Positions 7,733-27,170 of a DNA stretch of 64,000 nucleotides are shown here, piece after piece. Each line of letters opens with the position of its first letter. Position 1 is the stretch's first letter. The notes beneath the pieces were generated by a model. That model did not search any database. It was not told where the DNA came from and was given only the letters and a program-made list of their open reading frames with translations. The position numbers and the translations under genes are program-made. The DNA comes from Rhodospirillales bacterium (GTDB lineage Bacteria; Pseudomonadota; Alphaproteobacteria; ATCC43930; CGMCC-115725): assembly GCA_028288725.1 (NCBI GenBank), contig JAQGIC010000037.1:1-64000 (forward strand), in the 5' to 3' direction.

Positions 7733-8799
7733 GCGGCGTAAAGCTGATCGTAGCCGCGGACCATGGCGGTGATATTGCGCGACGCGACGACGAAGTCGCG
7801 CGGATCGGTGAGGCACGGCAGGCTGATCGCCTGGTCGAGGGCCGTCGTCAGGCCGGCCTCGTCACCGTCCTTGATCAGGTAGCCGGTCGACGGGCACAGC
7901 GCGTCGCGGACGCCGCCGACGTCGAGCGCCACCGCGCGCACGCCGGACGCCTGGGCCTCCAGCAGGGATAGCGGCAGGCCCTCGTGGCGGGACGCCAGGC
8001 AAAACACGTCGAGCGCCTGATAAAAGCGCGGCATCGTATCGACCCGGCCCAGGAAATTGACCCTGCCGTCGAGGCCGAGCGCGGTCACCTGCGCCGTGAG
8101 ATTGGCAAGCTCGCTGCCGCTGCCGGCGATCGCGAGGGTGGCCGGGGTGTCCAGCCTGGCGAAGGCTTCGATCAGGCGGTCGACGCCCTTGACGGTTTCC
8201 AGGCGGGCGGCGGTGCCGATGATGGGCCCTTCCAGCGGCAGGCCCAGCGCCGCGCGGGCGGCATGCTGGTCGCCGGGCAGGAAGCGGTCGGTATCGATGC
8301 CATTCCAGATCACCGTGGGCCGGCACCCGGGAATGGCCCGGCGCAGCGCGTCCGCCACGATGTCGGCGTCGGCGGCGAGCGCCGGGCGGGCGAGGCTCAG
8401 CGCCAGCCGCTCGACCATGCGCCGGCGGCGTCCGGCCAGATGCCAGGCATCATGTTCGGTATGGACGACATGGCGGATCCCGGCGAGCCGGGCGGCGACG
8501 CCGCCATAGATCAGCGGGCCGATGTGGTGGGTATGGACGATGTCGATGTTCAGCCGCTTGAACAGGCGCCGCAAGTCCATCAGCAGGCGGGGCGCCACGC
8601 CCGGCTGCTTGTCCATGCCATGCAGCCGTCCGGACAGCTCGCCGGCGCGGGGCCAATTCGCCAGGATCGTTTCCGGTCGGCCCTCCAGGCTGATCACATG
8701 GACCTCGTCGGCGGACGCGCCGAGCCGCGCCAGGTCCAGCACGATCGTCTCGATTCCGCCGGGCTGCAGATGTTGAACCACCTGCGCCACCCGTCTCAC
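7729..8799 (-). CDS. Glycosyltransferase family 4
   Basis: A 356-residue GT-B enzyme that probably adds a sugar to the lipid-linked repeat unit on the cytoplasmic face. The N-terminal acceptor half has the GGIETIVLDLARL loop; the C-terminal nucleotide-sugar half has GTAARLETVKGVDRLIEAF and the E-x7-E region HEGLPLSLLEAQASG. It overlaps the upstream Wzz gene and the downstream fusion gene by 4 nt each (ATGA), so it is translationally coupled to both. Donor and acceptor sugars cannot be assigned from sequence. Confidence 0.9.
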   Translation of the reverse strand: MRRVAQVVQHLQPGGIETIVLDLARLGASADEVHVISLEGRPETILANWPRAGELSGRLHGMDKQPGVAPRLLMDLRRLFKRLNIDIVHTHHIGPLIYGGVAARLAGIRHVVHTEHDAWHLAGRRRRMVERLALSLARPALAADADIVADALRRAIPGCRPTVIWNGIDTDRFLPGDQHAARAALGLPLEGPIIGTAARLETVKGVDRLIEAFARLDTPATLAIAGSGSELANLTAQVTALGLDGRVNFLGRVDTMPRFYQALDVFCLASRHEGLPLSLLEAQASGVRAVALDVGGVRDALCPSTGYLIKDGDEAGLTTALDQAISLPCLTDPRDFVVASRNITAMVRGYDQLYAA

Positions 8800-10316
8800 G
8801 CTACGGCCCCTCGGGCCTTGTTACTGGAAGAAGGGCCGATATCGATCCTGCCGTCGGCGGTGAACCCGTCGTCGAACAGCAGCGGGATGGTGCTCAGCAC
8901 AGGCGCCTTGACCAGCCGCTCCAACTGGGCGACCGACCGGATCGAGCTGTCGAGCAGTTCGGCGACGAATGCCATGGCCACGCCCAGGACGAGCGCGCCG
9001 ACGCAGCCGGCGACGAAGAACATCAGCAGCGGCAGGTTGACCGTCACCGGCAGGCCCGGGCGATCGATCACCTTGATCTGCTCGGGTAGTTCGAAATGGC
9101 CGAGATCGACGGTCAGGCGCGCGGTCTCGAAGCGCTTCAGCAGTGAATCGTAAAGATCGCGCTGGGTCCGGGCCTCGCGATCCAGGTCGTTCAGTTCGCG
9201 CTCGACCCCGCCGAAGGCCTCGGTCTTGGTTTCCATGTCGGCGACATCCTTGGTCAGGCTGTCGATTTCGCGTCCGAGACCCTTGACCTTGGCTTCGGCC
9301 GTCTGCAGCCCGGTCAGCTGCGAGATCAGCAGGGGCTGAGTGCCGCTGCCCGGCTGCGAGCCGTTGGCGCCGGTCGGCGGCGGCAGGTCGGCCTGCATGG
9401 TCGAGGCGCGGTTCCACAGCTGCGCCAGATCCTCGGTCGAGAGCGACTGGGCCTGCTGGATCTGGCGCGCGCGCTCTTCCTGCAGCCGCTCCAGCTGATG
9501 GATGGCGCCCTGAACCGCGCTATGCTCGTCGGTATAGCGGGCCCGCAGCATGGCGAGCTGGCCCGAGATCTGGACGATCTGCTCTTCGATCTTGCCGACG
9601 ATCGGGTTGGCCGAGGCCAGGCGATCGCGCAGGCTCTGCTGCGTCGCCTCGGCCCCGGCCAGCTCGGTCTTGCGCTGCTGCAGCGTGTCGCGCAATAGCG
9701 ACAGGCGCTGGATATTGGCGGCGTGCAGTTCGGGCAATTGATCGGAATGCCGGTTGCGGAAGGTGGCAAGCGCTATCTCGGCCTTCTCCACGTCCGCCTT
9801 CTTCTCCTTGATCTTGTCCGACAGGAACACCTCGGAATTCGCGACCGAGGACTGGCCAGGCGCGCGGATCGCCTCGATGAAGCGGATGGCGACGACTTCC
9901 AGTACCTGGGTCATCTGGTCGGGACTGCGCGAGCGCATCTTGAGTTCGACCAGGTCCTTGCCGACCAGTCGGGCGGTCAAGGCGCGGGACAATTGCTGAA
10001 CGATCGCCTCGCGGTCGGCGTCCGAACCGTTCTCGGGCACCAGCTTCAGGCTGTTGACCACATCCCACAGGATGTGCCGGCTCTGCAGCAGGACGGTCAG
10101 CCCGTCCATCCGGTCCTTCAGGTTGGTCTGGACGGCCAAATCCTGCACGACCGGGTTATTGGCGATTTCCTGGACCAGGATGGTCATGCGCGTCTCGTAG
10201 ATGCGGGGCGCCAGAATGCCGACGATCAATCCGAGCAGGGGCAGTACGACGAACGGGGCGACGACCAGATAGCGTCGCCGCCATCCCGCCAGCAGCACCG
10301 TGCTCAGCAGAGCCAT
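8796..10316 (-). CDS. Wzz/GumC-type polysaccharide chain-length/co-polymerase protein
   Basis: Inner-membrane co-polymerase of the Wzx/Wzy pathway. From the ATG at 10316 (506 residues) it has TM1 (VVAPFVVLPLLGLIVGIL), a large periplasmic part rich in coiled coil (about 170-400), a proline-containing stretch and TM2 (LLMFFVAGCVGALVLGVAMAF), and it ends shortly after, without a cytoplasmic kinase domain. A separate CpsD-like P-loop protein is encoded at 24581. I chose 10316 because the extra residues of the ORF-track start (10388) overlap the upstream lipoprotein gene; a TTG at 10334 behind GGAGACC is another possibility. Counterpart of SypO. Confidence 0.88.
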   Translation of the reverse strand: MALLSTVLLAGWRRRYLVVAPFVVLPLLGLIVGILAPRIYETRMTILVQEIANNPVVQDLAVQTNLKDRMDGLTVLLQSRHILWDVVNSLKLVPENGSDADREAIVQQLSRALTARLVGKDLVELKMRSRSPDQMTQVLEVVAIRFIEAIRAPGQSSVANSEVFLSDKIKEKKADVEKAEIALATFRNRHSDQLPELHAANIQRLSLLRDTLQQRKTELAGAEATQQSLRDRLASANPIVGKIEEQIVQISGQLAMLRARYTDEHSAVQGAIHQLERLQEERARQIQQAQSLSTEDLAQLWNRASTMQADLPPPTGANGSQPGSGTQPLLISQLTGLQTAEAKVKGLGREIDSLTKDVADMETKTEAFGGVERELNDLDREARTQRDLYDSLLKRFETARLTVDLGHFELPEQIKVIDRPGLPVTVNLPLLMFFVAGCVGALVLGVAMAFVAELLDSSIRSVAQLERLVKAPVLSTIPLLFDDGFTADGRIDIGPSSSNKARGAVA

Positions 10317-10323
10317 GTCGAAC

Positions 10324-10830
10324 TTAACGGACAATCGCTTGGTCTCCAAAATCGAGCCGCGCTGTGTTCGGCGGCTGACCGACGTCATAGCGCGTCTGGG
10401 TCACATGCAACGTCGCAGGCAAATGTTGCGCCACAAAGCGCGCGTGACGGTTGGCGGCCAGGGCGGCCGCCATCGGCGACGGATCGTCGGACGGCCCGAC
10501 GATCAACACGGCATCCCGCTGCGTGCCGGCGATCGCCGTCAGTTGCTGAAGATCGTTGTTCGGGATTGACAGGGAGCCGTCCTGATCGACGACCCTGAGC
10601 GTGATCGGGTCGGGCGTCGATTTCTCAGGCTTGCCGCGGGCCTTTGCCAGCATCTCCTCGACCGTCATCGGCTTCTGCGGGTTCGCCTTCGCCGCTTCCT
10701 GCTGCAGCAGCAGCCGGTCGCTGGCGGGGATCAGCTGCGCCGGTGCCTGACTGGCGCAGCCGGTCAATACCCCGGCCGACAGCAGGATGCCGAGACAGGA
10801 CCGGGCGTGTTTCGGCGAACGGCGCTGCAT
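10324..10830 (-). CDS. Outer-membrane-type lipoprotein with a degenerate OmpA-like C-terminus
   Basis: 168 residues from the ATG at 10830, which follows a strong AGGAGAGTG ribosome site; the ORF-track start adds 18 unlikely residues. The signal peptide ends in the lipobox LSAGVLTGC, so it should be lipidated. The C-terminal part (DAVLIVGPSDDPS, then ALAANRHARFVAQHL) resembles the beginning of an OmpA/peptidoglycan-binding fold but lacks the usual NxxLSxxRA signature in full, so this is tentative. It lies between the secreted hydrolase-like gene and Wzz. An OmpA-family gene (sypB) is present in the V. fischeri syp locus, so a cell-wall-linked accessory role is plausible. Confidence 0.8.
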   Translation of the reverse strand: MQRRSPKHARSCLGILLSAGVLTGCASQAPAQLIPASDRLLLQQEAAKANPQKPMTVEEMLAKARGKPEKSTPDPITLRVVDQDGSLSIPNNDLQQLTAIAGTQRDAVLIVGPSDDPSPMAAALAANRHARFVAQHLPATLHVTQTRYDVGQPPNTARLDFGDQAIVR

Positions 10831-13354: not shown

Positions 13355-14484
13355 GATAACCCGTCGATCAGAGTGGCGACCTGGGCGGCGCGCGCCTCCC
13401 AGGTCTCGGAACGGACCCGGTCGCGGCGCTCGGCACGCCGCGCATCCGGTTCGTGGAGGGATTGCTCGATCGCGGCGACGAAGCCGGCCGCGTCGGGCGC
13501 GATCGAAATCAGATCGGCATAGGCATCGAGCGCCGGAAACGGCGTCGAGACGATCGGTTGGCCCGTCGCGAGATATTCCCGCAGCTTCAAGGGGTTGCTC
13601 GCCCGGATCTGCGCATTGTCGATGAACGGCAGCAGCGAGACCTGCCAATGCTGGCAATAGCCCGGCAGGGCCGAATGCGGGCGGGGTCCGATCAGCCGGA
13701 CGTTCGGGACCGACGTCAGCCGCTCGACCGGCACGCGCACTTCGCCGATCACCAGAAAGGTCCAACCGGGCAGGCGCCGCGCGGCCTCGGCCAACAACGC
13801 CTGGTCCAGCCACGCCGACAGGCTGCCGTAGAACCCGGCGACCGGGCCCTCGGGCAGATCCGGCGCGCGCGGGGCCGGCGCCGCGAACAAAGCGATGTCG
13901 GCGCCATGGGGTAGCATCAGGGTTTTCGCGGTCGGGAATCTCGCGGCCAGCGCCGGGGATGCCGCCAGGATTCGGTCGGCCTTGGCCGCGAGCCGGGTCT
14001 CCGCCCGGGTCACCGGCCCATGATCGACCCCGGCCAGATGGGCGAAATCATCGCCGCAATAATAGAGCGTCGCGCGTTCGCCGAACGCGCCCATCAGATC
14101 GACGACCGTCGGCAAGGACGCCCATAGCACCGGCCGGACGATGCCGCGCGCCGCCATCACCCGGCGGACCTGGCGCCCGACCAGCCGGCGGTTGAGCCAC
14201 GCGGCCAACGGGTTGCCCGGCCAGGGCAGCGCCAGCGGCGCCACGACGGACAGGTTGGGCGGAACCGGTTCGCGCTCGACCGGGCCGCCGGACCGGCCGA
14301 ACAGGGCGGCCCGCAGCTTCTGGACGATCCGCTTCAGGTCGGCGAAACCCAGGCGCGGCCGGCGCAGGCCGATCGAATTGACCCAGACGACGCGCCGGTC
14401 GGCGGCCAGCCGCTTGACCAGATGCTGCGTGCTGCTGGGATGACGCCCCCAATCCTCGCCGAAGACGATCAGATCGGCGGTCAT
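13351..14484 (-). CDS. Glycosyltransferase, GT-B fold (TuaH-like)
   Basis: 377 residues from the ATG at 14484, which overlaps the acyltransferase stop as ATGA; the longer ORF-track start is a shadow of the acyltransferase gene. The N-terminus IVFGEDWGRHPSSTQHLVKRL and the C-terminal pattern SLLPFIDNAQIRASNPLKLREYLATGQPIVST are characteristic of GT-B transferases that assemble exopolysaccharide or teichuronic acid units. Both neighbours overlap it by 4 nt. Sugar specificity is unknown. Confidence 0.87.
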   Translation of the reverse strand: MTADLIVFGEDWGRHPSSTQHLVKRLAADRRVVWVNSIGLRRPRLGFADLKRIVQKLRAALFGRSGGPVEREPVPPNLSVVAPLALPWPGNPLAAWLNRRLVGRQVRRVMAARGIVRPVLWASLPTVVDLMGAFGERATLYYCGDDFAHLAGVDHGPVTRAETRLAAKADRILAASPALAARFPTAKTLMLPHGADIALFAAPAPRAPDLPEGPVAGFYGSLSAWLDQALLAEAARRLPGWTFLVIGEVRVPVERLTSVPNVRLIGPRPHSALPGYCQHWQVSLLPFIDNAQIRASNPLKLREYLATGQPIVSTPFPALDAYADLISIAPDAAGFVAAIEQSLHEPDARRAERRDRVRSETWEARAAQVATLIDGLS

Positions 14485-15188
14485 TGACCACCGGACAGGG
14501 AACGCACGATTTTCGCCGGCGCCCCGGCGGCGAGCACGAAGGCCGGCAGATCCCTGGTCACGACCGAGCCGGCCGCGACGACCGTACCCCGGCCGATGGT
14601 GACGCCGGCCGAAACGGTGACGCCGGTCGCCAGCCAGACATCGTCTTCCAGCACGATATCGCCGATCTGGTCGGCGGTGTCGGACAGGCCCGCGGCGCGG
14701 GCGGCGGCGTCGAGCGGGTGGCCCGGGTAGCCAGCCAGAAAGGCGCGGCCGGCGATGCGGACATTGTCGCCGATCGTCACGCGGCCGCCGACCGCGATGG
14801 TCGTCTGCCAGCCGATATCGACATTGCGGCCGACCGTCAGGATCGGGTCGTCGCTGGCCGCCCGGCCGCTGAAGGTGCTCTGGGCCGAGACCCGGCAATC
14901 CGCGCCGAAGCTGAGGCGCAGCCGGCCCAGCACCAGCGGCATGCCGCCGTAGAGATAGAGGTTGGCGGCGGGCGCTTCGAGCCGCGATTGGAACAGGGGC
15001 GTCCAATAGAGCGCGCGGGTCAGATTGGCGAACAGGCCGGATAGCGCCAGATGCAGCGCATAGAGCGGCTTGTGCAGAACGGGGAGGACCGGAACGGCGC
15101 CGCCGCGCGCGGCTTTGGCCAGGCGCCACACCCGCTGCGCCAGCGGGCTGTCGCCACGTTTTGCCCAATCCTTCAATCCCACCAGCAT
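14481..15188 (-). CDS. Hexapeptide-repeat acyltransferase (LbH family)
   Basis: Left-handed parallel beta-helix O-acetyltransferase likely to decorate the repeat unit. Isoleucine-patch repeats are visible (VGRNVDIGWQTTIAVGG, VTIGDNVRIAGRAFLAG, IVLEDDVWLATGVTVSAGVTIG). The ORF track starts at a TTG (15287) that overlaps the upstream stop as TTGA, in keeping with the chain of overlaps in the operon. I prefer the ATG at 15188 (235 residues) because the extra 33 residues are low-complexity and look unconserved. Both starts remain possible. Counterpart of SypM. Confidence 0.83.
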   Translation of the reverse strand: MLVGLKDWAKRGDSPLAQRVWRLAKAARGGAVPVLPVLHKPLYALHLALSGLFANLTRALYWTPLFQSRLEAPAANLYLYGGMPLVLGRLRLSFGADCRVSAQSTFSGRAASDDPILTVGRNVDIGWQTTIAVGGRVTIGDNVRIAGRAFLAGYPGHPLDAAARAAGLSDTADQIGDIVLEDDVWLATGVTVSAGVTIGRGTVVAAGSVVTRDLPAFVLAAGAPAKIVRSLSGGQ

Positions 15189-15283
15189 CGGCCGCCCTGT
15201 CTCAAGCTGTCCCCGCGTCGCTTCCTGCGACTTGGGCCTCCCCGCGCCCTCGTCCTGCAGGAGACGGGCCAACTCGGGTTTTC

Positions 15284-16750
15284 TCAAGGCTCCGGCGGAT
15301 CGTCCTCGTCCACGACGTCGCCGGCCGCCATGCGACCCGCGAAACGCGAAACCGACAGGGCCAGGGCCAGCAGAATATAGATCGGCCAGGTGAAGCCCTG
15401 GGTCAGGAAGCTGCCCGACACGATGAAGCTCGCCAGACCCGCCAGCACCGCCTGGGCGATGGCATAGGCCTCGAGATTCATCCGGACGCCCTCGGCGCGC
15501 AACCGGTCGAGCGTGCGCAGCGCGCCGAACGAGCGTTTGACCGTGGCCCCGACCAGCACCAGAAACAGGATCAGGCCGACGAAACCGGTCTCGGCCAACA
15601 CGCCGAACCAGGTGCTGTGGACGGCCTTGGCGAAACCTTCCCAGTTCGAGGTGTAGAAGTAGAAATTGCCCGGGAAATTATCGATGCCGACGCCGAACAG
15701 CGGATGATCGAGCGCCATGCGAAAGGCGGCCTGCCAGGCATAAAGCCGGCCGGCGGCGGACTCGTCGACCATGCCCGCCTCGGCGGCGCCGCCCGATTGG
15801 CGACCGGAAATGCCGGCAAGCGCGAACAGCGCCATGGCGCCGAGACCGCCGACGCCGATGGTGACGACGCGCGATTTGATGGTGCGGAGCGCGAACACGG
15901 CGAACACGGCGGCGGCGCCCAGCAGGCCGCCGCGGCTTTTCGTGTCGAGAATGGCGATCAGGATGATGATGGCGCTGATCAGGCCGAATATTCGATTCGA
16001 CCAGCTCATGCCGGGCGACAGCAGATAGGCGACGGAGAACGAGATCGGGAACAGCAGCACGAGCGAGAGGTCGTTCGGATCGCCCAGCAGCGAGCCCATC
16101 TCGCGCCCGATCGTGACGCGCGTGCCCTCGACCAGATTGATCGGATCGCCGGTATTGTGGATCGCGACCAGCGAGACCGCGAGCCCGGCCGCGACCAGCA
16201 CCTTGCCGGCGAGCGCCAGTTCCCGCGGATTGCGCGCCAGCCAGGCGATGGCCGGCACCATGATGGCGATCTTGCTGTAGGTGTCGATCCAATAGGACAT
16301 CGAGTTCGCGCGATTGGTTGCGAACAGGATGCCGATCGTCACCTGGGCGAAGAACAGCGAGAAATAGGTCAGCTCCCGAGACCAATAGGGCTTGATCCGC
16401 CCGATCGCGAGCTGGGTGCCGAGGACGAGCATGCTGGCGACGGCGAGCAGCAACGGCAGATGCAGATTATATAGTTGCGGAAACGCCTCGTGCAGCCGGA
16501 AGAACGACAGGGCGATGAAGGACAGGCACAGAATATACGGCTGCTTGATGACCAGCGCCGTGGCGATCGGCGCGAAGGCCAGCCCGACGATCAACAGGGG
16601 CGACGGCAGGTAGAACCACAGCAGGCCGGCCCCGATCGAGACGCCCAGGCCGATGGCGATCTGACGGCGCAGCGCGCGCTTGACGCGTTCCGGATCCGCC
16701 AGATCCAGCTCGTCCGGCAGATTGCGCTGGTGAAGGTGCTCGATCGCCAT
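15284..16750 (-). CDS. O-antigen ligase/polymerase family protein (Wzy-like)
   Basis: 488 residues from the ATG at 16750, which overlaps the flippase stop as TGATG; the ORF track includes about 200 shadow residues. It is a polytopic inner-membrane protein with about ten TM segments and a Wzy_C-type periplasmic loop containing MALDHPLFGVGIDNFPGNF and VHSTWFGVLAETGFVGLILF, the hallmark of WaaL/Wzy O-antigen ligase-polymerase proteins. It probably polymerises repeat units flipped by the adjacent Wzx. Counterpart of SypK/SypL. The C-terminal tail is acidic (DVVDEDDPPEP). Confidence 0.88.
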   Translation of the reverse strand: MAIEHLHQRNLPDELDLADPERVKRALRRQIAIGLGVSIGAGLLWFYLPSPLLIVGLAFAPIATALVIKQPYILCLSFIALSFFRLHEAFPQLYNLHLPLLLAVASMLVLGTQLAIGRIKPYWSRELTYFSLFFAQVTIGILFATNRANSMSYWIDTYSKIAIMVPAIAWLARNPRELALAGKVLVAAGLAVSLVAIHNTGDPINLVEGTRVTIGREMGSLLGDPNDLSLVLLFPISFSVAYLLSPGMSWSNRIFGLISAIIILIAILDTKSRGGLLGAAAVFAVFALRTIKSRVVTIGVGGLGAMALFALAGISGRQSGGAAEAGMVDESAAGRLYAWQAAFRMALDHPLFGVGIDNFPGNFYFYTSNWEGFAKAVHSTWFGVLAETGFVGLILFLVLVGATVKRSFGALRTLDRLRAEGVRMNLEAYAIAQAVLAGLASFIVSGSFLTQGFTWPIYILLALALSVSRFAGRMAAGDVVDEDDPPEP

Positions 16751-18162
16751 CAGGCGGGCCGCCGGAAACGTGCCGGTACGGGCGCCAGGCCCAGGGCCAA
16801 GGCCATGACGCCGGCGGTCAGGCAGCCGGCACAGAGTGCCAGCCCGCCGCTGAACCAGTTCAGCCCCGCCGGCGCAAACCAGGCCGCGACGGCGGCGAAG
16901 GCGGCATACAGCATCAGCCGCGCCCAAGGCAGGTTGAGCGGGACCCGTCGCTGGCTGTCGATCATGAACAGCACGAGGCGCGCGACATAGGCGGTCACGG
17001 TCGCGATCACCGCGCCCATCACGCCCAGTACCGGGATCAGCAGCAGATAGGCCGCGAGCGCCACGCCGGCCGAGGCGAGATTGATCACGGTCGGCCGCGA
17101 AGTGCCGCGGCCGGTGAAGGAGCCGACGTTCAGCAGGTCGCCGGCATGCTGCGCCACCGCCCCGATGATGAGCCACGGTACGTAACGGATGGCGCCATGA
17201 TAGGCGGGTGGGGTCATGAGGGTGACGAGCACCGGCCCGCCGATCGCGACGCCGAGGCAGATCCAGGTCAGGTAGGTGAGCCCGAACGTCACCGTGCGCG
17301 CACTCCTTTCGCGGCCTTGCGGCTCGCTCAGAATACCGATCCGGCGGGGGAACCACCAGAGACCGAACGGCTGAAATAGCAGAGGGGCGATTAACGCAAC
17401 CTTTGCGGCGATGGCATATTCGGCAAGGGCCGCGACCGGAACGACCGGGGCCAGCAGCAACCGGTCGAACGATCCCAGCACGAAGCCACCCAATCCGGCC
17501 AGCACCAGGGGCGAGCCGTAGCGCATCAGCACGCCGGCCATGGGCAGGTCGAACCGCACGCCGGTCGCCCGCGCCTGCTGGACCGCGAGGATCAACGCGG
17601 TCAGCGCCGCCGCCGCGAGCCCCGCCGCCATCACGCCCGGTACGCCCAGATCGGCGTTGAGCGCCACCACGATCAACGTGGCCTGCAGCAACGAACGCAG
17701 GCCGATCATGGCCAGATAGAAACTCGCCCGATCGGTCAGCCGGAGCCAGGCGAGCGGCACCTGGATAGCCCCATCCAGCGCTACGGAACCCAGCAGCAGC
17801 CGCAGCGCCATGGGATCGACCGCGGGCCCCAGCAGTCGCTGGATCAGGCCGCTCGCGCCTTGCAGTGCCAGAGCCGCCACGGCCCCCAGCATCAGGATCA
17901 GACCGAAGGCGGCCGCGGCGATCCGCCGGCGGGTCGGCGCGTCCCGGGCGTCGCCGATGAAACGATAGAGCGCATCGACCAGGCCGAAGCCCAGGACCAC
18001 GGTCGCGACGTCGGCCAGGCTCTGCATCAGTTCGATCGAGCCATATTCGGTCGTCGACAGATGACCGGTGACGAACGGCACCATGACGATGGCGAGCCCG
18101 CGGGCCAGCGCCACGGACAGGGCATAGAACAAGGCCTGGCCCAGCGGCTTGCGCAGACCCAC
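16750..18162 (-). CDS. Wzx-type polysaccharide flippase (MOP superfamily)
   Basis: 470 residues from a GTG at 18162 that shares one base with the upstream stop (TAGTG); the longer ORF-track start is a shadow. Twelve or more hydrophobic segments, starting QALFYALSVALARGLAIVMVPFVTGHLSTTEYGSIELMQ, match polysaccharide biosynthesis/MATE-like flippases that move the undecaprenyl-linked repeat unit across the inner membrane. Its place between a GT4 and a Wzy-like gene fits the Wzx/Wzy pathway. Confidence 0.88.
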   Translation of the reverse strand: MGLRKPLGQALFYALSVALARGLAIVMVPFVTGHLSTTEYGSIELMQSLADVATVVLGFGLVDALYRFIGDARDAPTRRRIAAAAFGLILMLGAVAALALQGASGLIQRLLGPAVDPMALRLLLGSVALDGAIQVPLAWLRLTDRASFYLAMIGLRSLLQATLIVVALNADLGVPGVMAAGLAAAALTALILAVQQARATGVRFDLPMAGVLMRYGSPLVLAGLGGFVLGSFDRLLLAPVVPVAALAEYAIAAKVALIAPLLFQPFGLWWFPRRIGILSEPQGRERSARTVTFGLTYLTWICLGVAIGGPVLVTLMTPPAYHGAIRYVPWLIIGAVAQHAGDLLNVGSFTGRGTSRPTVINLASAGVALAAYLLLIPVLGVMGAVIATVTAYVARLVLFMIDSQRRVPLNLPWARLMLYAAFAAVAAWFAPAGLNWFSGGLALCAGCLTAGVMALALGLAPVPARFRRPA

Positions 18163-19325
18163 TAGATGGCCTCGACCAACCGGGACAGGGTCTCCGCCTG
18201 CCGGACGTCCGTGAAGCGATCGAGCACCCGCGCCCGGGCGCCCCGGCCCATCGCCGCGCGCCGGGCCTGGTCGAGCGCCAGGAACCGCTCCAGCATGGCG
18301 AGCAGGCTCGGCCGGTCGCCCGGCTCGGCCAGAAAGCCCGAAGCCGCGTCGACCGTTTCCTTCAAGCCCATCTGCCGTGTCGCGATCACCGGCAGGCCCA
18401 TCGCCATCGCCTCCTTGACGACCAGGGGCCCCGTGTCCTTGAGCCCGTCCGCCGCCGGGCGGAACGGCCCGACGAATGCCATATAGGCCGGACCCTGCTC
18501 GGCAATCCACTCGCTCGAACGGGCGCCCAGGAAATCGACGCGATCGCCGAGCCCCAACTCGGCCGCCATGGCCGTCAATTCGGGCTTCAATCCGCCGTCA
18601 CCGACGATGTCGAGGCCGGGACGGCGCTCGGCCGGCAGTTGGGCCAGCGCCCATAGCAGATCGTCGACGCCCTTGCAGTCGATCAGCCGGCCGACGAACA
18701 GCAGACGATGGTTCGGCGTCACCTCGGGCCGGGGTCGGAAGCGTTCGGCATCGACGCCGCACGGCGCATTGAAGATGGGCGCCGCGGGGGCCAGAGCGAC
18801 AAGATCGGCGCGCATATCCTCGCAGACCGCCAGCGCGGCATCGGCGCCGAGCAGCTTCGGCGCCAGATCGATCGGGTGCTGATAGACGTCATGGCCGTGG
18901 CAGACGAAGCTGACGCCGGCGCCCATCAGCCGGGCGGCGACGATGGCGTGGGCAGTGCCGGCCTGGGCGAAATGGGCATGCAGATGGGTGCAGCCGCGGG
19001 CGCGGGCCGCCGCGGCGATTCGGGCCGAGCTCCACAGCAGCGACCGGCGCGGCAAGCCCTGCTGCGCGCGGACGAAGCGCAGCGCCGCGCGGAGCCCGCG
19101 GCCGGCGCGGGGCAGCAATCCCGCGACCGCGCCGGCGGGGACCTGGTCCAGATAGAGCGCCATCGCCGCGATGTCGCCGCTGTCCGGCTGCCGGGGCGCG
19201 TCGAGCCGGGTCATGACGATCGGCACGACCCGATGACCGCGCCGCATCATCGCGCGCATCTCGGTCAACACGAAGGTTTCGGACAGAACCGGAAAATTGG
19301 CCAGCACATAGCCGATCGTCTTCAT
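18162..19325 (-). CDS. Glycosyltransferase family 4, first gene of the EPS operon
   Basis: 387 residues from the ATG at 19325, preceded by GAGGGGCC; the ORF track starts one codon earlier at a TTG. GT-B enzyme with N-terminal FPVLSETFVLTEM, typical of colanic-acid-type GT4 proteins, FVGRLIDCKGVDDLLWAL, and the E-x7-E region VVKEAMAMGLPVIATRQMGLKE. It opens the ten-gene minus-strand operon. Its ribosome site lies in the 3' arm of a 7-bp inverted repeat (19331-19352). Confidence 0.9.
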   Translation of the reverse strand: MKTIGYVLANFPVLSETFVLTEMRAMMRRGHRVVPIVMTRLDAPRQPDSGDIAAMALYLDQVPAGAVAGLLPRAGRGLRAALRFVRAQQGLPRRSLLWSSARIAAAARARGCTHLHAHFAQAGTAHAIVAARLMGAGVSFVCHGHDVYQHPIDLAPKLLGADAALAVCEDMRADLVALAPAAPIFNAPCGVDAERFRPRPEVTPNHRLLFVGRLIDCKGVDDLLWALAQLPAERRPGLDIVGDGGLKPELTAMAAELGLGDRVDFLGARSSEWIAEQGPAYMAFVGPFRPAADGLKDTGPLVVKEAMAMGLPVIATRQMGLKETVDAASGFLAEPGDRPSLLAMLERFLALDQARRAAMGRGARARVLDRFTDVRQAETLSRLVEAI

Positions 19326-19330
19326 CAAGG

Positions 19331-19438: not shown

Positions 19439-20368
19439 ATGCAGCCTCGCCTGAGCGTCGTCGTCCCGACGCGCGATTGCCTCGACTATTTGCCGGCGGC
19501 CCTCGCCAGTCTGCGCGCGCAGGCGATCGCGGATCTGCAGATCATCGTGGTCGACGATGGTTCGACCGACGGGACTGCGGCCTATATGGCGGCCGAGGCG
19601 GCCAAGGATCCGGCGCTCACGATCGTGACGCGCGGCGGCGGCGGCGTGGCGGCCGCGCGGAATGCCGGCATGGCGGCGGCTGCCGCGCCGATCATCGGCT
19701 TTCTGGATGCCGACGATGTCTGGCGTCCCGGCGCCGTCGCCGACCGGCTGGCGGCGCATGAGGCCGATCCGGGGCTGGTGCTGAGCTTTGCCGACTATGA
19801 ACACGTGACGCCCGCGGGCCTCGGCCTCGGCACCTGCTACGCCTTCTGGCCGCGGTTCCGCCGGTTCATCGATGGCCGGCACGGGCTGCTGCCGCTCGGT
19901 CCCCGCGCGCTGGCGCTGCTCTATGCCGAGAATGTCGTGGGCACCTCGACCGTGCTGGCGCGCCGCGACGCGCTCGAGGCCGAGGGCGGGTTCTCGACCG
20001 AGTTTGCCTCGGCCGAAGATTGGGACCTCTGGCTGCGCCTCGCCCAGCGCGGCCGCGTCGCCTGTTCGACCGCGATCGCCACGACCTATCTGGTACGGCC
20101 AGGATCGCTGTCGCGCGACCGTCCGACCTTGATCCGATGCCTGAAGCAGATCGCCGCCCGCCATGGCGCCGTCGCGGCACTGATGAGTCCGTCGGCGTGG
20201 CTCGCCTGCCGTTCGCGCATCGCGGTCGCCGAGGCGGAACATGCGCGGATCGTCGGGCATCGGCCGGTTGCTCTGGCCCAGCACCTGCTGGCGCTGCTGC
20301 TGGCCCCCTCGCGCCGGCTCGCCCGGGCCGCCGCGTCGGACGGCGCGCGGCTAATGGGGCTCAGATAG
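19439..20368 (+). CDS. Glycosyltransferase family 2
   Basis: A 309-residue GT-A enzyme. It shows the GT2 signature LSVVVPTRDCLDYL, the nucleotide-binding VVDDGSTDGT, the metal-binding FLDADDVW (DxD-like) and the catalytic-base region SAEDWDLWLRL. It is encoded on the plus strand, divergent from the large EPS operon, and converges with the GT4 gene at 20361 with an 8-bp tail overlap. Probably another repeat-unit or side-chain transferase of the same polysaccharide. Confidence 0.9.
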   Translation: MQPRLSVVVPTRDCLDYLPAALASLRAQAIADLQIIVVDDGSTDGTAAYMAAEAAKDPALTIVTRGGGGVAAARNAGMAAAAAPIIGFLDADDVWRPGAVADRLAAHEADPGLVLSFADYEHVTPAGLGLGTCYAFWPRFRRFIDGRHGLLPLGPRALALLYAENVVGTSTVLARRDALEAEGGFSTEFASAEDWDLWLRLAQRGRVACSTAIATTYLVRPGSLSRDRPTLIRCLKQIAARHGAVAALMSPSAWLACRSRIAVAEAEHARIVGHRPVALAQHLLALLLAPSRRLARAAASDGARLMGLR

Positions 20369-21380
20369 CGGCACCCGCCGCGCGATATTCCCGCAGCACG
20401 GCCTCGATGCCGCGCGCGACGGAGAAGCGGGCGGCGATGGTCGCCCGGGCCTGATCCGCCAGGGTGCCGCGGGCTTCCGTCGGCAATTTGGTCCAGGCGC
20501 CGATCGCGGCGGCCAGCGCGTCGAGATCGCCGGCCGGTGCCAGGAAGCCGTTTCGCCCAGGCTCGATCAGATCGGGCAGGCCACCGACGGCAAAGGCCGC
20601 GACCGGCACGCCGTGGGCCATGGCTTCCAGCGCCGCCAGCGGCAGGCCTTCATGGCGCGACGACATCACCAGGAGGCCGATCTCCGACCAATGGGGCGCC
20701 ATCGGGACAACCCGCCCCAGAAACGCGACCTCGGGGCCATGACGGCTTTCCAACGCGGCCCGCATCGGCCCCTCGCCGTAGATCGTCAAGCGCTGGCCCG
20801 GCAGGCGGGTGCCGAGCGCGCAAAACAGATCGGGCCCCTTCTCGAAACTCAACCGGCCGACGAAGGCCACGCGATCGTGCGGCCCCGCGATCGAGGCTGC
20901 GTCCGGCAGGTCGACGAAATTCGCGATCAGCGCGACCGGGGCGGGCAGGGCGCCGGCGATGGCGGCCGAGACGGCGATCCGGCGCCCCAGCCGCGCGGTC
21001 ATCCGATCCAGCAGCCCATAGAGCCGCAGCCGGCCGGTCCCCGGTTCGCCGGCGTGAAAACTCGAGACTACGGGCCGGCCCGCGATGCGCGCGGCCAGAC
21101 GGCCCATGATCCCGGCCTTGTAGCCATGGGTGTGCAAGACCGCCGGGCGGCGTCCGCGGAGCGCACGGATCAGGCCGCGAAACCCGCCCGACAGGGTTTC
21201 ATGTGCGAGGCCCGCCTGATCCAGGGCGGCGCGCAGGGGATGGTTGCCGTAGTCGGCCCAGAACAGCACGCGTGGTGCCTGACCGGCCTGGGCGAGACCC
21301 GCGGCCAGTTGCAAGACATGGCTCTCGATCCCGCCCAAATCGCGGCTATCGAGCAGCAGCCAGATCTCGGTTTTGGCCAT
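20361..21380 (-). CDS. Glycosyltransferase family 4
   Basis: 339 residues from the ATG at 21380, which has GAGG 8 nt upstream; the ORF track adds 27 residues reaching into the intergenic region. GT-B fold with DLGGIESHVLQLAAGLAQAG, HTHGYKAGIMGRL, VAFVGRLSFEKGPDLFCAL and HEGLPLAALEAMAHGVPVAAF. It is divergent from the STAS/Wza operon and shares a 200-bp intergenic region that holds two inverted repeats and a sigma-54 promoter facing the other way. Confidence 0.9.
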   Translation of the reverse strand: MAKTEIWLLLDSRDLGGIESHVLQLAAGLAQAGQAPRVLFWADYGNHPLRAALDQAGLAHETLSGGFRGLIRALRGRRPAVLHTHGYKAGIMGRLAARIAGRPVVSSFHAGEPGTGRLRLYGLLDRMTARLGRRIAVSAAIAGALPAPVALIANFVDLPDAASIAGPHDRVAFVGRLSFEKGPDLFCALGTRLPGQRLTIYGEGPMRAALESRHGPEVAFLGRVVPMAPHWSEIGLLVMSSRHEGLPLAALEAMAHGVPVAAFAVGGLPDLIEPGRNGFLAPAGDLDALAAAIGAWTKLPTEARGTLADQARATIAARFSVARGIEAVLREYRAAGAAI

Positions 21381-21422
21381 CGCGACAACCTCAGGCTTTT
21401 TCCCCGACCTCGCGAGGATTGA

Positions 21423-21436
21423 TTTGCAAAATGCAA
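21423..21436. promoter_or_regulatory. Palindrome TTTGCAAA / TTGCA-AAA-TGCAA, candidate activator site 1
   Basis: TTTGCAAAATGCAA contains both the octamer TTTGCAAA and the 5-3-5 inverted repeat TTGCA-AAA-TGCAA. It lies about 95 bp upstream of the -24/-12 promoter at 21521, where sigma-54 enhancer-binding proteins normally bind. It could instead act on the divergent GT4 gene. Confidence 0.45.
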
Positions 21437-21445
21437 AGAAAAAGA

Positions 21446-21458
21446 CCGCATATTGCGG
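21446..21458. promoter_or_regulatory. Inverted repeat CCGCA-TAT-TGCGG, candidate activator site 2
   Basis: A second 5-3-5 inverted repeat that starts 22 bp (about two helical turns) after the first (21424). Two phased dyads are the usual layout for dimers of an NtrC-class activator with Fis-type HTHs. Function is inferred from position and symmetry. Confidence 0.4.
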
Positions 21459-21520
21459 CAACTCTTTGCGGAAATTGACGATTCGGCGTTGATTTGAACC
21501 CTCTCAAGGGCTTCGTTCGA

Positions 21521-21535
21521 TGGTACGTTGTTTGC
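21521..21535 (+). promoter_or_regulatory. Sigma-54 (-24/-12) promoter of the STAS/Wza operon
   Basis: TGGTACGTTGTTTGC matches the TGGCACG-N4-TTGC consensus at 10 of 11 defined positions (C to T at the fourth base), with correct GG-N10-GC spacing. The expected start near 21547 leaves a 35-nt leader before the STAS ATG at 21582. The same locus encodes a sigma-54 activator (2382-4067). Confidence 0.75.
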
Positions 21536-21581
21536 GGGAGTAGATCGGAGCGGGGATCGTATCCGACATGGAGCAGTCAAT

Positions 21582-21899
21582 ATGCAAGCAACCTTCATCG
21601 AACCCAACACGGTGGTTCTCACCTTGGAAGGGGAATTCGATGCGCTTGCGGTCGTTGATGCCCGTCCGATGCTCGAAGGCATCGTCGCCAACAGCGATTC
21701 CGATGTCGTCATGGATTTTTCGGGGGTCGATTTTCTCGACTCCTCCGGTATCGGCTGTCTCGTGTTCGTATTCAAACGCCTGTACGCGGCCAAGCGGACC
21801 CTGACGTTGCAGGGCCTGCGCGATCAGCCTCAGCGCCTGATCCAATCGCTCAGGATCGACAAGGCCATCCCGACGCGACCCGTCGGCGCGGCAGCCTGA
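21582..21899 (+). CDS. STAS-domain anti-sigma factor antagonist (SypA/SpoIIAA-like)
   Basis: 105 residues from the ATG at 21582, behind GGAG with an 8-nt gap; the ORF-track start reaches back into the promoter. Single STAS domain with VVMDFSGVDFLDSSGIGCLVF. D53 and S54 correspond to the Asp/phospho-Ser pair of SpoIIAA and RsbV, so it can be switched by a Ser kinase/phosphatase. The RsbW-REC-PP2C protein at 4015-5586 carries both activities and is the likely partner. It is first in the operon ahead of lipoprotein, Wza and CpsD genes, the same order as sypA-B-C-D. In V. fischeri the unphosphorylated STAS protein promotes biofilm formation. Confidence 0.9.
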   Translation: MQATFIEPNTVVLTLEGEFDALAVVDARPMLEGIVANSDSDVVMDFSGVDFLDSSGIGCLVFVFKRLYAAKRTLTLQGLRDQPQRLIQSLRIDKAIPTRPVGAAA

Positions 21900-21901
21900 G
21901 A

Positions 21902-22291
21902 TTGCTCGTGCGGGTGTTTTTTCGCCCGACCCTCGGGGTCGTGGCGCTGCTTTCCCTGGCCGGCTGCACCGAGGATTGGCCGAGCTACGGCCATGGCGGC
22001 ATCGCGGAGCTCCGGCCGATTCCGCTCAAGCCCGAAGCGGCCGCGCTCAATCTTCAATTGAGCTGCTTCAAAGGGCTGATCGATCGGTATAAGGCTTCGG
22101 ATGCGGCGGCCTATTCCAACGCGACCTTGCCGCGCGCCGAGACTCTGAGCGCCCGGATCTCCCGCGAGATCGCGGGCGGGCTGCTGCCGGATGCACGCTA
22201 CGACATGGAAACCCTCAAGGTGATGGTGGTCGATCTGACGGACGCCGCCGAAATGCCCACCGACAAGGTCGATCAATGCGCCGCTTCCTGA
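21902..22291 (+). CDS. Small lipoprotein of unknown function
   Basis: 129 residues with a lipoprotein signal peptide ending LLSLAGC (lipobox) and a short alpha-helical mature part containing one further Cys (LSCFKGLIDRY) and a C-terminal VDQCAAS. The start is uncertain: TTG at 21902 or GTG at 21908; neither has a good ribosome site, so translation may be coupled to the STAS gene whose stop is 2 nt upstream. It overlaps the wza-like gene by 16 nt. Position suggests an accessory to the polysaccharide export apparatus. Confidence 0.75.
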   Translation: MLVRVFFRPTLGVVALLSLAGCTEDWPSYGHGGIAELRPIPLKPEAAALNLQLSCFKGLIDRYKASDAAAYSNATLPRAETLSARISREIAGGLLPDARYDMETLKVMVVDLTDAAEMPTDKVDQCAAS

Positions 22292-24579
22292 TCGGCCGTC
22301 CGCTGCGGACCCTTTTGGCTCTGCTGCTCGTCGTCCTGGGGCTGGCGGGCGCGTCGCAGGCCTGGGCGCAACAGCCGGCGGACGGCGGCGTGCCGCCGTT
22401 GCAGGCTCCGCCCGGCGGCAACGGCAATCAGTACCAAAATCCGAGCGCCAATTCTCAGCAGGCTCAGCGGGCGCCGGTCACGCCCGGCGCGCTGCAGAGT
22501 TCGGCGGAAGCTTCGACGCCGGATACGCAGGTCCGGATCGGCGACGTGCTGTTCCTGTCGCTGCCGGGCGAGGACACATTCAACAAGACCTTCCAGGTCG
22601 ACCGGCGCGGCAACCTGCTGCTGCCCGAGGTCGGTCTGGTCCAGGTCGCGGGCCTGACCATCGCCCAGGCCCAGGTCAAGATCCATGATCTGCTGGTCCG
22701 CGCGTTCCGCGATGTCTCGCGCTTCGATCTGGCGCTCAAGGAACGACGGCTGCTGGTGACCGTGCTGGGCTTCGCCCGCAATCCCGGCCCGGTCGAACTG
22801 TCCGGCGACGCCACGGTGCAGATGGCGATCAACATGGCCGGCGGCCTGGCCCAGGGCGCCCAGCTAGACCGGATGCAGGTCCGCCGCGGCAAGGAAGTGC
22901 AGATCTTCGACTATAAGAAATATCTCGATACCGGCGATCCGTCGGTGCTGCCGAAGCTGGAGCCGCTCGACGAGATCTTCGTGCCCGCCTCGCCGCTGAC
23001 CGGCAACGTCCAGGTCGACTTCGACCCGCATACGCTCGCCGCGGCCGGCGACGCCGGCGACGACCGGACGTCGATCAAGGTGTTCGGCGAAGTCAACCAA
23101 ACCGGTTCGTTCGCCTTCAAACCCGAAGCGACGATCGTCGAATACATCATGCGGGCCGGCGGCGTGACCCGCTTCGCCACGACCGACGGCATCCGCGTCG
23201 TGACCAAAGGCAAGCCGCAGACCTTCAGCCTGAAGGACTATCTGGATTCGGGCGACAAGAAGCTGCTGCCCGAGATCGGGCCGGGCACGACGATTTTCGT
23301 GCCGAAGGAACTTGAAGAGATCAAGGGCGGCGCCAGCACCATCTATGTGATGGGCGAGGTGGCGAAGCCGGGCGCGTTCGAAATCAAGCTCGGCGTCGGC
23401 TTCCTCGACGTGCTGGCCAATGCCGGCGGCCCGACCCGCTTCGCCAACACCAACGAGATCCGCATCCTGAAGGCCAATGGCGGGGTCGAGAATTTCGATC
23501 TGCTGGCCTATACCGAAACCAAGAGCAAGCGGGTGGCCCCGCCGAAGCTCGGGCCGGGCGATACGATCTTCGTGCCGGAGAAGCAGCAGGAAGAGGGCGG
23601 CAGCTGGCTGAAGAATTCGCCCGACAAGGTCGTGCGCATCATCGGCGCCATCAACAGCCCCGGTCGCTACGAATGGAACGATGAGATGACCATCCTGGAT
23701 CTCATCGCCGAGGCGGGCGGACCGGCAGATCGCGCCAATACCTCGCATATCGAGATCCTGCCCGGATCCAAGGAAGTGGGCGCAAATACCGCGGTGCAGA
23801 TTTTCGACCTGGCGTCGCTCGTCGAAAAGGGCGGCCGGCTCGATCAGTTGCCGAAGCTGAAGCCGGGCTGGACGATCAGCATTCCGACGCTGCCGCAGAG
23901 CAATGGCAACGACAACCGCTCGTCCTGGCTGCAGCAGCCGGCCGAGACCTCGATCTATGTGCTGGGCGCGCTCCGCAATCCGGGCCGCTATGCCTTCAGC
24001 AAGAACATGCATTTCCTCGATATCCTGAGCGCCGCCGATGGTCCGGCGCCCTCGGCCGATCTGGAAAACATCCGCATCACCCATCGCCGGAACGGCAATG
24101 GCAAGCCCAGCATCACCAAGCTCGACCTGACCGCTTATTTCTCCAGCGGCGACGACCGGCTGCTGCCGGACGTTCAGCCGGGCGACGTCATTTATTTCCC
24201 GGACAAAAGTGCCGACTGGCTGGCGCTAGGCAAGGAACAGACGGTCCGGGTCCTGGGCTCGGTCAATAAACCCGGCCGCTACAAGTTCAACGATACGATG
24301 ACCCTGCTCGATCTGCTGGCCGAAGCGGGCGGCCCGACCGCCGATGCGTATCAGGAAAAGATCGTGGTGGTGAACTTCGCCCGCGGCCAGGATCAGGCCG
24401 AGACGTTCAATCTGGTGCATTTCGCTAAGACCGGAAATTTCCAGGAGCTGCCCGTGTTGCGCGCGGGCGACACGGTCTATGTGCCGAACGCGACGCAGAG
24501 CGATTGGCAACAATTCATAAGTGGCGTGCGCGATACCGTGTCCGTGTTGTCGATCTTCGCCCTCCTCGGAAAGCTCTGA
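22276..24579 (+). CDS. Wza-type polysaccharide export protein with six SLBB domains
   Basis: 767 residues, about twice the length of E. coli Wza. A cleavable signal peptide ([19 protein letters not shown]) has no lipobox Cys. The Poly_export domain (about 75-160) begins [21 protein letters not shown]. Six SLBB repeats follow, recognisable by the recurring V-GxVxxPGxYxF and LxxAGG motifs: [66 protein letters not shown] and [13 protein letters not shown]. It should form the periplasm-spanning export channel; the extra SLBBs imply a longer periplasmic barrel. Counterpart of SypC. Confidence 0.92.
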
Positions 24580-24580
24580 C

Positions 24581-25294
24581 GTGACGCCGCTGCCGATCCA
24601 TTACGCCGAAGTGCAGCGCATGTATGCCGCGACCGTCGCGCGCGGCCTGCGGCTGCTGGCGGTCACCGCGGCTGAGGCGGGCGAGGGTGTATCGACCATC
24701 GCCTATGCGCTGGCCCGGCGCGCGGCTGCGGCCGGCGAGCGGACGCTGCTGGTCGAATTCAACATGTTCCGCCCGTCGCTGGCAGCCCGGCTCGGCATTC
24801 CCGAAAAGGCCGCCTGGCAGTGCGACGCGGAATCCTCCTTCGCCGCGATGACGGAATTTCCCTCGATCCGGCTTTCGCTGCTGCCGGCCCCGCGGGGGCT
24901 GTCCGGCCTTGAGCTGATCCGCTTCTCCGACAATCGGGCGATGGGCGATCTGTTCGCGGCCTGGCGCGCGCGGTTCGACGTGATCATCTGCGACTGCTCG
25001 GCGGTCAACCGCACGAACAGGGGCAATATCGCGGCCTCGTCGGTCTGCGAGGCCGGGGCGGCGGCGATCCTGACCGTGCTCGCCGGCCAGACGCCGGCCC
25101 GGCGGGTGACCGAGGCGGTGACCAGCCTGGCGGAGTCCGGCATCACCGTGACCGGGACCATCCTCAACAAGCGTTTCGATCCGTCGCTCTATCAGGAACT
25201 CATGCGCGAAGCGAAGCGGATCGAGCCGTTCTGGCCGAACATCGCCAAACGCATCCGCCGCTTCACCGAGACCAACCGCAAGGTGCTGAGCTAG
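24581..25294 (+). CDS. CpsD/Wzc-like P-loop protein with degenerate Walker A
   Basis: 237 residues from a GTG at 24581, one base after the wza-like stop; the ORF-track start is a shadow. It has the ParA/BY-kinase fold: P-loop region [19 protein letters not shown], a Walker A'-like [12 protein letters not shown], and [14 protein letters not shown]. The usual GEGKST reads GEGVST: the phosphate-binding Lys is replaced by Val (codon GTA). There is no C-terminal Tyr cluster. It is probably a non-catalytic partner of the Wzz protein at 8796 rather than an active tyrosine autokinase. Counterpart of SypD. Confidence 0.85.
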
Positions 25295-25331: not shown

Positions 25332-25658
25332 ATGATGCAGCTGACGATCCACGATGCGCTCGCGGCGCTGGGCGACAGGGGCGAGACCTATCTGAAGCTG
25401 TTCGCCCAGCCCGCCCTGGACATCGCCCTCTACAAGCCAGACCGGACCGATCCGCAAACGCCGCATCGGCGCGACGAGATCTATGTGATCGCGACCGGAT
25501 CCGGAAGCTTCGTTCAAGCGGACGAAACCCGTCCGTTCGGTCCGGGCGATCTTCTGTTCGTGCCCAAGGGCGTGCCGCACCGGTTCGAAAACTTCACCGC
25601 GGATTTTTCGACCTGGGTGATCTTCTTCGGCGAGGTGCCGGCCGAGCCGCTACCATAA
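25332..25658 (+). CDS. Single-domain cupin protein
   Basis: 108 residues. Cupin motif 1 region is PHRRDEIYVIATGSGSFVQADE and motif 2 is GDLLFVPKGVPHRFENF, giving a possible His/Glu/His metal site. Start at 25332 (a second ATG follows directly) with GAGG 8 nt upstream. It follows the CpsD-like gene by 37 nt and may be the tail of that operon, then converges with the minus-strand companion of the exosortase. Small cupins of this type are mannose-6-phosphate isomerase-like or stress-related; no specific role can be assigned. Confidence 0.8.
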   Translation: MMQLTIHDALAALGDRGETYLKLFAQPALDIALYKPDRTDPQTPHRRDEIYVIATGSGSFVQADETRPFGPGDLLFVPKGVPHRFENFTADFSTWVIFFGEVPAEPLP

Positions 25659-26976: not shown

Positions 26977-27170
26977 GGGATTTCCGACCCTGCGGGCGGC
27001 GTAATGCCGCCGAGATCCTCTGTCTAGCATAGTCGGTGCCAGGCCGCCCCATCGGATGCCCTTGACGCGGAATGTGTGACAGTTCGAAATGGACGAAGCT
27101 TCATCTTCGGGCAAGCAATCCCGGTCAATGCTTCCTATATGAAGACTGGTGGTATCGAGGAGAATCGATC

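Follow-up and report, generated by a model that had tools for sequence, protein, structure and literature searches.

The promoter region of a STAS-Wza operon

We analysed a 64,000-nucleotide stretch of Rhodospirillales bacterium DNA (contig JAQGIC010000037.1, positions 1 to 64,000; hereafter the window), which carries an exopolysaccharide locus. On the plus strand of this locus, a gene for a STAS protein (21582-21899) opens an operon that continues with a small lipoprotein-like gene, p129 (21902-22291), a Wza-like exporter with six SLBB matches (22276-24579) and a polysaccharide tyrosine-kinase-like protein (24521-25294), and possibly ends with a cupin gene (25332-25658). The subject of this work is the DNA just upstream of the STAS gene, where an earlier reading of the sequence (the original prediction) had placed a sigma-54 promoter with upstream dyads.

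The segment TGGTACGTTGTTTGC at 21521-21535 on the plus strand has the layout of a sigma-54 promoter and agrees with TGGCACG-N4-TTGC at 10 of 11 positions, a count on which our recount and the original prediction agree; with one more base (TGGTACGTTGTTTGCG, 21521-21536; TGGTACG TTGT TTGC G) it fits at 10 of 12 positions, the W after TTGC being scored as well. The GG-N10-GC spacing is exact, the -24 GG and the -12 GC lying 10 bp apart, and the position of the element predicts a transcription start at about 21547. Taken alone, this match is not significant in 64 kb, since TGGYRYRN4TTGCW is found with one mismatch seven times in the window against 4.67 expected. Two further sigma-54-like sites were noted on the minus strand: one at 13891-13906 was rejected as lying inside a glycosyltransferase-like reading frame, and another, TGGCACCGACTATGCT at 27026-27041, lies near the start of a 320-residue frame. 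No sigma-70-like site was found in 21300-21700, and no Rfam match indicative of an RNA element in 20000-23000.

Two candidate activator sites, both perfect 5-3-5 palindromes, precede the promoter: site 1 (TTGCAAAATGCAA, 21424-21436; TTGCA-AAA-TGCAA) and site 2 (CCGCATATTGCGG, 21446-21458; CCGCA-TAT-TGCGG). They lie 22 bp apart from start to start, or about two helical turns, and span 63-97 bp upstream of the first -24 base, in agreement with the pair of inverted repeats originally placed at about 63-98 bp. Perfect 5-3-5 palindromes occur about 2.2 times per kb in the window, and two within 200 bp are only mildly unusual. The published LuxO and SypG sites are TTGCAWWWTGCAA and TTCTCANNNTGMDWN, respectively (PMC10162802). 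Site 1 is identical to the LuxO-type consensus, and its place 5' of a sigma-54 promoter is that expected of a LuxO/SypG-type site (TTGCAWWWTGCAA or TTCTCANNNTGM); site 2 keeps GCA-N3-TGC and differs from the consensus in its outer bases. The motif TTGCANNNTGCAA (TTGCAN3TGCAA) occurs a single time in the whole 5.54-Mb genome, at site 1. Among the near-matches checked in the same genome for a wider regulon, none had a 10/12 sigma-54 site 40-140 bp away. The original prediction had overlooked both the perfect LuxO-type match of site 1 and the syp-like character of the locus.

Conservation across related loci

Related loci were sought with an alignment of the Wza-like protein, which identified close relatives in 9 of the 385 class-level genomes and in 12 of the 398 phylum-level ones, both counts including the genome under study. 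With the addition of locus L048 and a Plesiomonas plasmid, the comparative set comprised 21 loci from Alpha- and Gammaproteobacteria with a STAS gene upstream of Wza. Eight of them (L084-L088 and L090-L092) were labelled Vibrio-type on account of exact SypG sites, and LuxO-like proteins are encoded as well in two of their genomes. Alignment of the upstream regions as DNA revealed no useful homology outside the motifs.

The promoter was scored in these loci as a match of at least 9/12 with GG and GC in place, against 1000 shuffles of the upstream regions. Of the 21 loci, 18 have such a sigma-54 site (GG-N10-GC) 45-66 bp upstream of the STAS start, against a null mean of 0.34 and a maximum of 3. 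Palindromes were defined as CA-N3-TG with at least four of five complementary pairs, 85-210 bp before the STAS start, and compared with 2000 shuffles: 17 of the 21 loci have one (null 1.9, maximum 8), and in seven there are two (null 0.1, maximum 3), spaced 22, 32, 14, 22, 21, 22 and 22 bp apart. In L048, a second GCA-N3-TGC site lies 32 bp from the first. Exact SypG sites stand at the same place in the eight Vibrio-type loci, several of which carry the published site as a pair with the 22-bp spacing seen in the window. IHF-like sites were also enriched in the relatives (12 of 20 at 8/9 or better; null 3.2, maximum 8). Both the dyads and the promoter are far better than chance because they are conserved in relatives.

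The spacing between dyad and promoter shows a preference for a 10.5-11 bp repeat. In the non-Vibrio loci, a helical repeat was supported at p of about 0.001, with p = 0.0048 at 10.5 bp and p = 0.0003 at 11.0 bp. The term 'phased', applied to the dyads in the original prediction, therefore holds both between the dyads (22 bp) and from dyad to promoter.

In relatives, the 13-mer TTGCAN3TGCAA is concentrated in syp-like loci, which hold four of the nine genomic copies in G077, at least one of two in G205, one of two in G148 and one of six in G769. In G205 and G148, one such site (L147 at 1501 and L151 at 1501) lies between two divergent sigma-54 promoters, at distances of 75 and 88 bp for L147 and of 80 and 88 bp for L151. 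In G205, the activator gene seems to belong to the divergent operon, an arrangement that would imply autoregulation there. The genome of L048 also contains perfect LuxO-type sites in pairs 39 bp apart (L156 at 1501 and 1540; G782:C198:643 and 682).

Gene content of the locus and its activators

The locus has the gene content of a syp locus: STAS, export, chain length, SypE/F/G, Wzx/Wzy, glycosyltransferases and sugar transferase. In the plus-strand operon, the STAS protein is SypA-like and keeps the serine of SypA (S56 in V. fischeri) within a DSSGIG motif, where it is a predicted phosphorylation site; the Wza-like and tyrosine-kinase-like proteins are SypC-like and SypD-like. p129 had no Pfam or NCBIfam matches and has weak relatives in L048, L080, L082, L083 and L090. 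On the minus strand lie a hybrid histidine kinase with a SypF-like role (GAF-PAS-HisKA-HATPase-REC-Hpt; 3-2378), which runs off the contig end, a sigma-54 activator (2382-4067), and a HATPase-REC-SpoIIE phosphatase protein (4015-5586) that matches the domain order of SypE. The same strand encodes a fused GT2 and sugar-1-phosphate transferase that unites SypQ and SypR in one chain (5891-7816), a SypO-like Wzz chain-length protein (8796-10388), and the acyltransferase (hexapeptide), Wzy, Wzx and GT4 genes of the locus (14481-19328). The GT2 and the sugar-phosphate transferase are separate genes in Plesiomonas and several relatives. In Plesiomonas shigelloides, a syp-like locus with SypE (L055, 631-22248) lies on a large plasmid, its STAS gene being embedded in an operon without a promoter of its own; no LuxO/SypG-type activator was found on that plasmid.

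The V. fischeri syp layout has several internal promoters, each with an enhancer, and in the window dyads with a sigma-54 site occur only at the STAS promoter: no such combination was found at gt4b/gt2 or gt4c, nor a divergent sigma-54 promoter for gt4c within 21382-21520. Nor was an enhancer with a sigma-54 promoter found in front of the long operon on the minus strand to which the activator gene belongs, so that the sequence gives no indication of a feedback loop.

The activator at 2382-4067, about 17 kb from the promoter at the opposite end of the locus, bears out the earlier statement that such a protein is encoded in the same locus. It has the REC-AAA+(GAFTGA)-Fis helix-turn-helix (HTH) order of the LuxO/SypG type, among solved structures it is closest to LuxO (5ep0, 450 bits, against 325 for the next family), and it groups with SypG and LuxO (98/100 support) apart from NtrC-like proteins. 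The inner branching places it no nearer to one than to the other, and we assign it to neither. The genome has six strong matches to sigma-54 activators and a single rpoN gene, the latter outside the locus on another contig. It also has a GcrA match, which points to an alphaproteobacterium, although GcrA is only a modest marker and matched one unrelated control too. A second LuxO-type activator, on contig C50, is 56% identical to the in-locus protein over REC-AAA-HTH and has a single HTH.

A single C-terminal HTH is usual in the family, though perhaps not defining, and the protein at 2382-4067 departs from it by having two HTH_8 stretches in tandem (about 462-502 and 520-557), which a low-confidence structural model renders as two three-helix units (predicted local distance difference test score, pLDDT, 62). 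Within the C-terminal 122 residues, the second HTH carries the family's usual leader, and the first therefore looks like an added copy. The remaining 15 in-locus activators of related loci read as single-HTH, and among the 385 genomes of the class only G001, of the same genus, gave a strong match spanning both HTHs (78%). In G001 (C7, about 248600-251400; L143, L145, L144), the tandem-HTH activator is flanked by the shortened end of a histidine kinase and by a broken cupin, and the exopolysaccharide block found between activator and cupin in the window (4068-25331) is apparently absent.

In the tree, the activators of loci with GCA-type sites fall in a LuxO-like region of unsettled branching, and loci with TCA-type sites have activators of the Vibrio SypG clade or of a separate alphaproteobacterial clade (L093-L095). 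This association of site type with activator clade is suggestive, and several of those genomes hold extra LuxO-type activators. It is conceivable, and we propose it only tentatively, that the tandem-HTH protein represents a new sigma-54 activator architecture that may bridge dyads 22 bp apart or bind with altered specificity, and that among syp-like loci the choice of half-site, GCA or TCA, evolves together with the type of activator. Such co-evolution, if true, would allow the code by which SypG and LuxO recognise their sites to be read from natural variation.

A proposed syp-like circuit and its known counterparts

The promoter and dyads are of the same kind as those that switch on the syp genes of Vibrio, and they very probably form a real control switch. 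We consider it highly likely that this SypG/LuxO-class sigma-54 promoter drives the STAS-Wza operon and is the main regulated promoter of the syp-like exopolysaccharide locus, and by analogy with known families we infer the following mechanism. Sigma-54 RNA polymerase would wait at 21521-21536 as a closed complex. The hybrid kinase (3-2378) would feed the activator, most likely that at 2382-4067, whose phosphorylated dimers would bind the two CA-N3-TG palindromes on the same helix face, 75 and 97 bp upstream. The activator would then form an AAA+ ring, loop to the promoter and open it, and transcription from about 21547 would express STAS, p129, Wza and the tyrosine-kinase-like gene. The SypE-like kinase/phosphatase may in turn control the STAS protein post-transcriptionally, as in Vibrio fischeri; the biology of SypA and SypE is described in PMC4517449.

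Several points weigh against this interpretation. Promoter, sites and activator binding are all predictions from sequence, and the promoter score is common in the GC-rich window, which has several dozen sites of at least 9/12. The base after the -12 element is G instead of the usual A or T, and the IHF site in the spacer matches at only 7/9, which is not significant and is not claimed as an element. Among the relatives, the score detects no clear promoter in G077, Plesiomonas L055 or L088, and the only dyad of G039 is degenerate; L088 does have TGGCACG and misses only because its -12 reads CATGA, contrary to the GC rule, and in L055 the STAS gene directly follows a sugar-transferase gene, which leaves hardly any intergenic space. 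The distances in the phasing test were collected by hand from site listings. The tandem HTH could alter site preference, and with a second LuxO-type activator on C50 the in-locus protein is only the presumed cognate one.

This last point leads to the strongest alternative, in which promoter and dyads are functional and the activator is the C50 protein, or both proteins share the site as an OR gate, like SypG and LuxO at qrr1. The similarity and single HTH of the C50 protein are in line with such a role, as is the presence of a perfect LuxO-type site only here in the genome, and SypG and LuxO use overlapping sites at the V. fischeri qrr1 promoter (Pqrr1; PMC10162802). The in-locus activator, however, adjoins the SypE-like and hybrid kinase genes as in syp, most related loci have an activator within or close to them, and the scanned neighbours of the C50 gene are unrelated to polysaccharide; we regard the C50 alternative as unlikely. 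Less probable still, and improbable in our view, is that site 2 is a minus-strand intrinsic terminator, leaving site 1 as the only working one. On the minus strand, 21459-21445 does read as a 6-bp stem followed by CTTTTTCTTT, but shuffles yield 0.6 terminator-like sites on average, there is no minus-strand transcript with an obvious need to stop at this point, the second GCA-N3-TGC site of L048 and L077 lacks a T tract, and second sites recur at 21-22 bp in Vibrio-type loci. That the elements are non-functional chance matches and another promoter drives the STAS operon is very improbable: although such promoter scores abound in the window, no sigma-70-like site was found in the searched region, and the elements are conserved across two classes while the intervening DNA is little conserved.

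The STAS-Wza operon is thus best read as controlled by a SypG/LuxO-class promoter, and the comparative evidence supports the sigma-54 promoter with upstream dyads first proposed there. The accompanying notion of a self-contained circuit stands in part: promoter, dyads and a LuxO/SypG-type activator are in the locus, but rpoN is on another contig, and the second LuxO-type activator elsewhere could also act.

These results suggest that the syp biofilm circuit exists well outside Vibrio, and would extend it, promoter logic included, to Alphaproteobacteria. What is new is a site of the SypG/LuxO class in a locus that is syp-like as a whole, outside Vibrio; in the literature searched, whose coverage was too incomplete to prove novelty, we found no description of such a locus in Alphaproteobacteria. 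How syp promoters stay responsive to SypG but not to LuxO is a question raised in PMC10162802. The comparative set contains two kinds of site, GCA-N3-TGC and TCA-N3-TGA, in the same position ahead of the STAS gene, which makes this question testable with natural sites and activators.

Among known systems, the closest parallel is the SypG-controlled V. fischeri sypA promoter with its syp enhancer, where a sigma-54 promoter likewise immediately precedes the STAS gene of a polysaccharide locus, with upstream CA-N3-TG palindromes and SypE-, SypF- and SypG-like genes in the locus. In contrast to syp, the window has half-sites TTGCA/TGCAA in place of TTCTCA/TGAGAA, an alphaproteobacterial host, an activator with two HTHs, opposed operons, fused SypQ and SypR, and a lipoprotein-like gene instead of SypB. 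The LuxO-controlled qrr promoters of Vibrio share with the window the LuxO motif TTGCAWWWTGCAA (site 1), the two sites upstream of a sigma-54 promoter, and LuxO itself as the best solved relative of the activator, but they drive a small RNA, whereas the window promoter is predicted to drive an exopolysaccharide operon. Finally, in the BerB/berA system of Burkholderia, polysaccharide production is under the control of sigma-54 together with an enhancer-binding protein (PMC5552954), a logic similar to that proposed here with a different activator and different sites.
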